A stretch of DNA of 64,000 nucleotides. Origin: Pyrinomonadaceae bacterium. Its GTDB lineage: Bacteria > Acidobacteriota > Blastocatellia > Pyrinomonadales > Pyrinomonadaceae. Below are positions 21,772 to 23,384 of the stretch, piece after piece. The stretch is from assembly GCA_026129865.1 (NCBI GenBank), contig JAHCHG010000001.1, forward strand, positions 558,001 to 622,000, in the 5' to 3' direction. Below the pieces are notes generated by a model, which was not told the origin of the DNA, ran no database searches, and saw only the letters and a list, made by a program, of their open reading frames with translations. The position numbers and the translations under genes were made by a program. Numbering within the stretch: position 1 is the first letter of the stretch; each line of letters opens with the position of its first letter.

Positions 21772-22770
21772 ATGAAGACCGAATTTGAATTTCTTTCAAA
21801 CCTGAAGCAAAGGTTTAAGCTAAACAATATCGGTGATGATTGTGCCGTCTTGCCAAAGGACTCGGAAACGGATCAGGTAATTTCCGCGGATCTGCTCGTT
21901 GAAGACATTGATTTCAGGCTGAAATGGACGACACCCGAATTTCTCGGTCATAAAGCACTTGCGGTTTCCCTTTCCGACATCGCTGCGATGGGCGCAAAGC
22001 CTGTCTGGTCAATGCTTTCCCTCGGAATTCCTGAAAATTTATGGCGCACCGATTTCGTCGATGAGTTTTATGAAGGCTGGTTCAAATTGGCTCGTTCGAC
22101 AAAGGTTGAGCTCATCGGCGGTGATATTTCAAGAACACCGGATAAGTTAGTCATCGACTCGATCGTCGGCGGCGAAGTTGACAAAGGTCGTGCGGTTTTA
22201 CGTTCGGGTGCAAAGACAGGCGATGTTATCTTTGTCAGCGGTTCACTGGGCGGTGCGCAGGCAGGACTAAATTATCTGGAATCAGGCATTTTACCGGACT
22301 CGGTTAATATTCAATCGAGCCTGCGGAAACTCATTTTGCGCCAACTCAAACCGGACGCGCAGACCACTCTCGGTCGCATCTTGGGCGAACGAAAACTTGC
22401 TAAATCGATGATCGATATCAGCGACGGATTATCGAGCGATTTGTTTCATCTCTGCAGATCAAGTAATAAAGGCGCCCGAATTTATGCGGACAAAATTCCG
22501 TTCGACGTTAATCTAACAAAAAATTCATCCGAAAATTTGGACATTCTCGATCTTGCATTAAACGGCGGAGAGGATTTTGAGTTGCTCTTCACAGCAGATC
22601 GGAAAATTTCTGAAAAATTTTTTCGTGAAATTTCTACTGCATTGAAAGTTGCGCTCACCTGTATCGGCGAGATCACGGAAACGCCCGAAAACATTGAGCT
22701 TTGTGTTAATTCAACAAGCCGAACTTTAATACCGAAAGGCTTTCAGCATTTTGCGAAATTTAATGAATGA
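21772..22770 (+). CDS. thiL: Thiamine-monophosphate kinase
   Basis: Phosphorylates thiamine phosphate to the active cofactor thiamine diphosphate; PurM-like ATP-binding fold. At 332 residues it matches the family. Visible motifs are GDDCAVLP near residue 20, SADLLVEDIDF, the dimer-interface HKALAVSLSDIAAMGAKP, the glycine-rich SGSLGGAQAGL, and DISDGLSSD. It is divergent from the MerR gene, with an 86-bp gap. No other thiamine gene is near. Confidence 0.93.
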   Translation: MKTEFEFLSNLKQRFKLNNIGDDCAVLPKDSETDQVISADLLVEDIDFRLKWTTPEFLGHKALAVSLSDIAAMGAKPVWSMLSLGIPENLWRTDFVDEFYEGWFKLARSTKVELIGGDISRTPDKLVIDSIVGGEVDKGRAVLRSGAKTGDVIFVSGSLGGAQAGLNYLESGILPDSVNIQSSLRKLILRQLKPDAQTTLGRILGERKLAKSMIDISDGLSSDLFHLCRSSNKGARIYADKIPFDVNLTKNSSENLDILDLALNGGEDFELLFTADRKISEKFFREISTALKVALTCIGEITETPENIELCVNSTSRTLIPKGFQHFAKFNE

Positions 22771-22793: not shown

Positions 22794-22824
22794 TTGACAA
22801 AGGCATTTACGATCTTGCTATACT
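22794..22824 (+). promoter_or_regulatory. Strong sigma-70-type promoter
   Basis: A perfect -35 TTGACA at 22794-22799 is followed by GCTATACT. The -10 could be TATACT (19-bp spacing) or GCTATA (17-bp spacing). Directly downstream, GTTCG-CCGG-atga-CCGG-a-CGAAC can fold into a leader hairpin (22832-22854). A ribosome site and a 50-codon ORF follow. It is one of the closest matches to consensus in the window. Confidence 0.7.
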
Positions 22825-22876
22825 CGCCACTGTTCGCCGGATGACCGGACGAACTTAATTTTTGGAGATAATTTTA

Positions 22877-23029
22877 ATGACTCAGAATCGGTTAAATACA
22901 AACATGATTGCGAACAGCTTATCCGCAAATTTGCGGTTTTGCGGAATTTTGCCGGTTTGTATCGATTTTGAATGTTCGAAACTTCAACAAATAACCGACG
23001 GCGTAGAATGCCGCGGAAGAAAGATCTAA
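22877..23029 (+). CDS. Undescribed 50-residue Cys-containing small protein
   Basis: Fifty codons from ATG 22877, with GGAG at 22864-22867 placed 9 bp ahead and a strong promoter 55-80 bp upstream. The peptide has four cysteines (22, 28, 33, 45) in the arrangement C-x5-C-x4-C-x11-C, an Asn-rich first third, and a basic end. I know no such family. It may be a metal-binding or redox micro-protein, or a leader peptide whose translation controls the RNA downstream. A compact terminator ends the unit at about 23160. Evidence for expression is indirect: promoter, ribosome site and terminator in the right order. Confidence 0.4.
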   Translation: MTQNRLNTNMIANSLSANLRFCGILPVCIDFECSKLQQITDGVECRGRKI

Positions 23030-23101
23030 AAAAGCGGGAGCGGCGGTTTCCGCTCCCGAAACTTACAATTTAAGAGTTTTTGAAACTCGAAATCGGTTTT
23101 T

Positions 23102-23160
23102 GGAGCGGTGACGCGAAAGTTCTCGAAAGAGAATTACGAGTCTCCGCTCTTTTTCGTTTT
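23102..23160 (+). terminator. Compound hairpin terminator downstream of the small ORF
   Basis: GAGCGG-t-GAC pairs with GTC-t-CCGCTC. An inner hairpin TTCTC-gaaa-GAGAA has a GNRA-type tetraloop. The stem is followed by TTTTTCGTTTTTT. Two more hairpins lie before it: CGGGAGCGG/CCGCTCCCG at 23035-23058, whose T-run is on the reverse strand, and GAGTTT/AAACTC at 23074-23088. Confidence 0.7.
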
Positions 23161-23196
23161 TTCACTGATGTTTGACAATTGAATAACCGACAAACC

Positions 23197-23384
23197 GTTC
23201 GGAGCTGTTACTTTAGGCGCGAAGATGCGAGCGAGGGTGCAGCTCCGGACACAAAAAAGGTAGAGAGTTCTTAAAGATCGTCTTCTTCCATAAAAACTTT
23301 GGCGAGTTCCAAAGAAGAAGACCTTGTGGACCGCACCGGGACTTCGATTTGTCCGGACTCTGCCCGAATTCTCTGCCTTTTTTT
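23197..23384 (+). ncRNA. Putative structured RNA of two domains
   Basis: Domain 1: GTTCGGAGCTG (23197-23207) pairs over 11 bp with CAGCTCCGGAC (23240-23250). Domain 2: AGGTAGAGAGTTC (23258-23270) pairs over 13 bp with GAATTCTCTGCCT (23366-23378), two wobbles, then T7. Inside domain 2, GTCTTCTT pairs with AAGAAGAC, topped by CTTTGG/CCAAAG, and GGAC/GTCC forms a further hairpin. A TTGACA stands at 23172-23177 but no good -10 follows. It matches no RNA family I can name. It could be an sRNA, a leader, or a small non-autonomous element. The strand is inferred from the T7 run. Confidence 0.35.

Follow-up and report, generated by a model that had tools for sequence, protein, structure and literature searches.

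Introduction

The peptides of known transcription attenuators monitor one amino acid or a small number of them, and the genes they control are biosynthetic. The unit analyzed here resembles the trp, his and ilv attenuators (trpL, hisL and ilvL) in its leader ORF, its predicted and mutually exclusive 1:2, 2:3 and 3:4 pairings, the intrinsic terminator formed by 3:4, and the decisive role that ribosome position would play. According to one survey, hardly any of the attenuators predicted in Acidobacteria have been linked to functions (PMC2965389).

Here, we describe a leader unit of the acidobacterial class Blastocatellia, starting from a copy within a 64,000-nucleotide stretch of a Pyrinomonadaceae genome (hereafter the window). 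Judged from sequence and predicted folds, the window copy is probably an orphaned member of a family of ribosome-mediated attenuators that head tRNA operons in Blastocatellia and would act in cis as a 20-amino-acid AND gate. It also seems fairly likely that Blastocatellia couple tRNA-operon transcription to all 20 aminoacyl-tRNAs through this "pangram" leader, a cis counterpart of stringent control, with the module also placed before rtcB in two genomes. If true, stable-RNA synthesis would be matched to amino-acid supply in cis, with the tRNA pool as the target, and the unit would be a natural and directly testable 20-input AND gate, in bacteria whose attenuators mostly await functions.

We found no description of the unit in Rfam or in the literature that could be searched. 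In Rfam searches, run with both gathering and relaxed thresholds, those of the listed matches that passed the cut-off were all to tRNAs; a match to AniS (E = 0.19), on the opposite strand and far below the cut-off, was rejected.

Organization and Conservation of the Leader Unit

All features of the window copy lie on the forward strand. It opens with a promoter (22794–22824) comprising a −35 hexamer TTGACA (22794–22799), a 19-nt spacer and a −10 hexamer TATACT (22819–22824). In the alignment of relatives this position is kept as TTGACA-N17/18-TGCTAAAAC, with a spacer of 17–18 nt rather than the 19 nt of the window, and it is the 19-nt spacer that keeps the window promoter off the standard scan list. 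The unit follows thiL (stretch 22482–22770), and it does so too in relatives whose tRNA cluster at this place has been lost (L036, L022).

The transcript would start with a 5′ hairpin (22832–22854; predicted fold −13.2 kcal/mol), retained in the aligned relatives with differing letters, followed by a ribosome-binding site, GGAGATA (22864–22870), that is likewise kept. The leader ORF (22877–23029) runs from an ATG at 22877 through 50 codons, four of them for Cys, to a TAA. Hairpin 1 (23035–23058; fold −19.0 kcal/mol) starts 5 nt past this stop codon and is conserved; its arms are CGGGAGCGG (arm 1, 23035–23043) and CCGCTCCCG (arm 2, 23050–23058). A middle hairpin (23073–23088), whose sequence varies among relatives, separates arm 2 from arm 3. 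Hairpin 2 (23102–23149) has a GAAA-capped inner stem and is followed by a U-tract, and together they comprise a conserved intrinsic terminator (23102–23162; fold −26.4 kcal/mol) built from arm 3, GGAGCGGTGAC (23102–23112), and arm 4, GTCTCCGCTC (23140–23149); arm 3 is alternatively predicted to pair with arm 2. Beyond the terminator lies a boxA-like motif, TTTGACAATTGAATA (23170–23184), near-invariant across 27 aligned family loci and weaker or absent in families other than Pyrinomonadaceae. We sought to compare it with the organism's own rRNA leader and found no 16S rRNA gene in the window's assembly. The unit is followed by a structured RNA of approximately 128 nt (23256–23384), termed RNA2, which has a closing stem, a U-tract and an invariant ACTTTGGCGAGTTCC at 23296–23310.

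The promoter hexamers, 5′ hairpin, ribosome site, 50-codon ORF with four Cys and GAAA-capped terminator had all been recognized in the initial annotation and are present in the sequence; the hairpin at 23035–23058, the middle hairpin, the boxA-like motif at 23170–23184 and the structured RNA reaching 23384 are additions to it.

Searching 40 related genomes at the DNA level recovered a 600-bp block, 68–74% identical, from four further genera of Pyrinomonadaceae, and its alignment revealed that the promoter, 5′ hairpin, GGAGATA site, ORF, both hairpins, boxA-like motif and RNA2 are common to relatives. Within Pyrinomonadaceae, 31 of 119 genomes contain a DNA-level match. A covariance model spanning the stop codon through the boxA stretch (R1) matched 79 of 162 Blastocatellia genomes in five families, and the matches of a refined model (R2) were confined to Blastocatellia when 396 genomes of the phylum were scanned. 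A pattern scan of GTDB identified hosts in Pyrinomonadaceae, Chloracidobacterium and other Blastocatellia (Acidobacteriota). Pattern matches in Streptomyces and other phyla come without the ORF and without tRNAs and were treated as background, with the exception of one locus (L192) on an Acidobacteria-named contig within an Actinomycetota bin. At the sequence level, the conservation of the unit exceeds chance. The initial annotation had named a lack of conserved ORF or stems among close relatives as grounds for refutation, and when this was examined the proposal was not refuted. The 600-bp block and the class-wide covariance-model matches show the conservation.

tRNA Operons Downstream of the Unit

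At most loci in relatives, the unit immediately precedes a large tRNA operon or cluster. The downstream tRNA genes typically number several, and up to 17, within 1.7 kb of the leader stop codon; they include those for Tyr, Trp, Ser, Arg, Gln, Leu, Glu, His, Asp and others. Behind the window leader, no tRNA gene occurs on the same strand for 11 kb, and an Rfam scan of the window returned a single tRNA-Pro and nothing else. The window's genome contains only 40 tRNA genes, which stand singly or in small groups over its contigs, whereas those of relatives form long clusters. It is because these 40 genes are scattered that we regard the window copy as an orphan, a reading that assumes a tRNA operon at this locus to be ancestral in the family. 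In the window lineage, the operon would have been dispersed while the promoter hexamers, hairpins, boxA-like motif and RNA2 stayed, and the peptide would have drifted to 17 of the 20 amino acids.

Amino-Acid Coverage of the Leader Peptides

Leader ORFs span 49–82 codons. Their peptides lack any conserved stretch and defy alignment between clusters, which share <40% identity with each other; even five close relatives have just seven invariant columns. A Pfam search with the peptide gave no match. What persists is composition. All 20 amino acids occur in 52 of 61 intact leaders, against 5.7 expected from leader length and pooled composition, and the remaining nine contain 19. When a single leader was retained per cluster (60% identity), approximately 40 of 45 were complete, against 4.4 expected. 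The rare residues are sampled sparingly; among the 61 intact leaders, Trp occurs exactly once in 59, Tyr in 52 and Cys in 45. The coverage is specific to the frame, other frames of the same DNA reaching 14–20, and a control of 54-residue windows cut from the long ORFs of the window yielded all 20 amino acids in one of 209 cases. Because start codons were picked by ribosome-site score and by reference to relatives, the boundaries of each leader retain some latitude.

Since the "intact" status of the 61 leaders was partly set after their coverage was known, the linkage was re-tallied by tRNA count. Of the 65 loci with two or more downstream tRNAs, 53 had complete coverage, compared with 3 of the 14 other loci (Fisher p = 3e-5; both locus groups were tallied manually, and related loci are not statistically independent). 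The tRNA-linked exceptions include L103 (18/20) and L192 (16/20), and L023, L148 and L155 are complete despite no or one tRNA nearby. Leader copies that lack a tRNA operon mostly show chance-level coverage. The window copy is among them, its peptide containing 17 of 20 amino acids (without His, Trp and Tyr), where the chance mean at such a length is approximately 17.4. In the window's family, Val is nearly always the residue missing from tRNA-linked 19/20 leaders near thiL (L019, L025, L032, L033, L037).

These data bear on what the unit produces. The initial annotation had offered both a new micro-protein gene and a leader peptide. A functional micro-protein, or a trans-acting small RNA, would accord with the unit's own promoter and terminator, with the conserved RNA2 behind it and with the window's lack of a tRNA operon. 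However, the peptide diverges beyond alignment while its coverage persists, and a constant spacing from stop codon to hairpin (see below) is unexpected for a protein gene; we therefore regard such a product as most improbable, and the four Cys once singled out are no hallmark, intact relatives having one or two. The leader-peptide alternative gains support from what is conserved: the coverage of amino acids, the spacing between stop codon and hairpin, and the hairpins themselves. What selection appears to favor is a complete set of amino acids rather than a particular peptide sequence.

The leader might also merely couple translation to the transcription of an untranslated tRNA operon, sensing general ribosome activity (e.g. 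under antibiotics), with the amino-acid set carrying no signal. An anatomy in which a ribosome at the stop codon matters, together with the boxA-like motif, would fit this proposal, as would the copies before rtcB or without tRNAs, which retain their hairpins despite incomplete coverage. Against it, coverage lies far above chance, rare residues are used just once, and coverage mostly disappears where the tRNA operon is lost, which makes general coupling distinctly unlikely.

A Predicted Ribosome-Dependent Switch

The distance from stop codon to arm 1 is 4–6 nt in all 66 analyzable loci, though peptide lengths and stop codons differ. Arms 2 and 3 are complementary at 7 of 7 positions in 61 of these loci, and masking the first six bases of arm 1 leads to 2:3 pairing in 65 of 66 predicted folds. 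As modeled, the 1:2, 2:3 and 3:4 pairings are mutually exclusive, with 3:4 forming the intrinsic terminator. Within the alignment, hairpins 1 and 2 exhibit a few compensatory changes. The 2:3 pairing is kept at 99.5% in the aligned set, compared with 33–53% for slid controls; covariation support for it is weak because five of the seven base pairs are invariant.

A ribosome positioned on a stop codon occupies about a dozen downstream bases. In the proposed mechanism, the ribosome would have to decode at least one codon for every amino acid in the leader. With all aminoacyl-tRNAs supplied, it would reach the stop codon and cover approximately the first five bases of arm 1, whereupon arm 2 would pair with arm 3, the terminator would be blocked, and RNA polymerase would enter the tRNA genes. 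If any aminoacyl-tRNA were short, the ribosome would stall upstream, 1:2 and then 3:4 would form, and tRNA transcription would end. Inferred from this anatomy, the sign of control would be opposite to that of the trp/his attenuators. When arm 1 is left free, static folding of arms 1–3 favors hairpin 1 at only 38 of the 66 loci, and the order and timing of transcription must therefore matter. In the trp system, the ribosome leaves the stop codon after roughly 1 s (PMC1183508); with a similar occupancy, the polymerase could get to arm 3 in the meantime. As low tRNA would lead to less tRNA, this positive loop would have to be damped somehow.

The same attenuator could also work with the opposite sign, as an OR gate in which a stall from any uncharged tRNA raises read-through and replenishes tRNA homeostatically, as in trp and his. 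That is the sign of known amino-acid attenuators (PMC1183508), and coverage of all 20 amino acids ahead of a tRNA operon fits a homeostatic loop too. Yet arm 1 lies outside the ORF, and a ribosome stalled upstream would leave it free, favoring termination. Moreover, a search of the leader ORFs of 60 loci found no ORF segment able to pair with arm 1, an argument against the classic design in which a stall prevents termination. We therefore consider the OR gate unlikely, and retain the reading in which a ribosome at the stop codon permits tRNA transcription. As a separate observation, the leader ORFs of these 60 loci appear to steer clear of sequences complementary to arm 1 (mean shuffle p of 0.74, none ≤0.05).

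RNA2 and Variant Copies

RNA2 was found only behind the leader unit, in 13 of 119 family genomes (L010–L021 among the loci), and is kept in the window. It has no match in Rfam, and an early idea that it is 6S RNA was dropped on that account. RNA2 may explain the survival of the orphaned unit in the window.

Two genomes (G015 and G040) feature a further attenuator copy directly upstream of rtcB, which encodes an RNA ligase (L115/L126 on G015:C97 and L116/L109 on G040:C1). In each, this rtcB is the only one found, and the associated leaders contain 18 of 20 amino acids. Second copies were also seen in Pyrinomonadaceae BP_15 and BP_17 (L124 and L153), followed by a small ORF without identity and one tRNA-Pro. 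Further downstream of L124 lies a 479-residue protein with a weak VWA match alone; a resemblance to Ro60 noted by eye was not confirmed by Pfam.

Comparison with Known Systems

The conserved leader ORF and ribosome site, together with the frame-specific coverage, suggest a translated leader, as in the trp/his type. Leaders of that type are rich in cognate codons, whereas those of Blastocatellia sample all amino acids evenly; their ORF overlaps segment 1, whereas the Blastocatellia stop codon stands ahead of arm 1 in 66 of 66 loci; and they govern biosynthetic genes, whereas this unit would govern a tRNA operon with an inverted sign. As two defining features, cognate-codon enrichment and ORF–segment 1 overlap, are missing, we class the unit as a variant of the attenuator and not as a member of the trp/his type.

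As with tnaC, a ribosome occupying the leader stop codon would keep termination from occurring downstream. However, tnaC employs an arrest peptide, a single effector and Rho termination, whereas the Blastocatellia unit has no conserved arrest peptide, no single effector and an intrinsic terminator, and its signal would be reaching the stop codon rather than arresting there. T-boxes likewise link tRNA charging to the choice between terminator and antiterminator, whereas sensing here would proceed by translation; no T-box match to Rfam was found in the window, and in 20 relatives the 150 matches listed out of 214 were all tRNAs. Finally, the unit shares with the boxA (NusB/S10) leaders of rRNA operons a stable-RNA operon and a boxA-like motif near the transcript start, but some Blastocatellia families have only a weak form of this motif or none, and it is preceded by a leader ORF and an attenuator.
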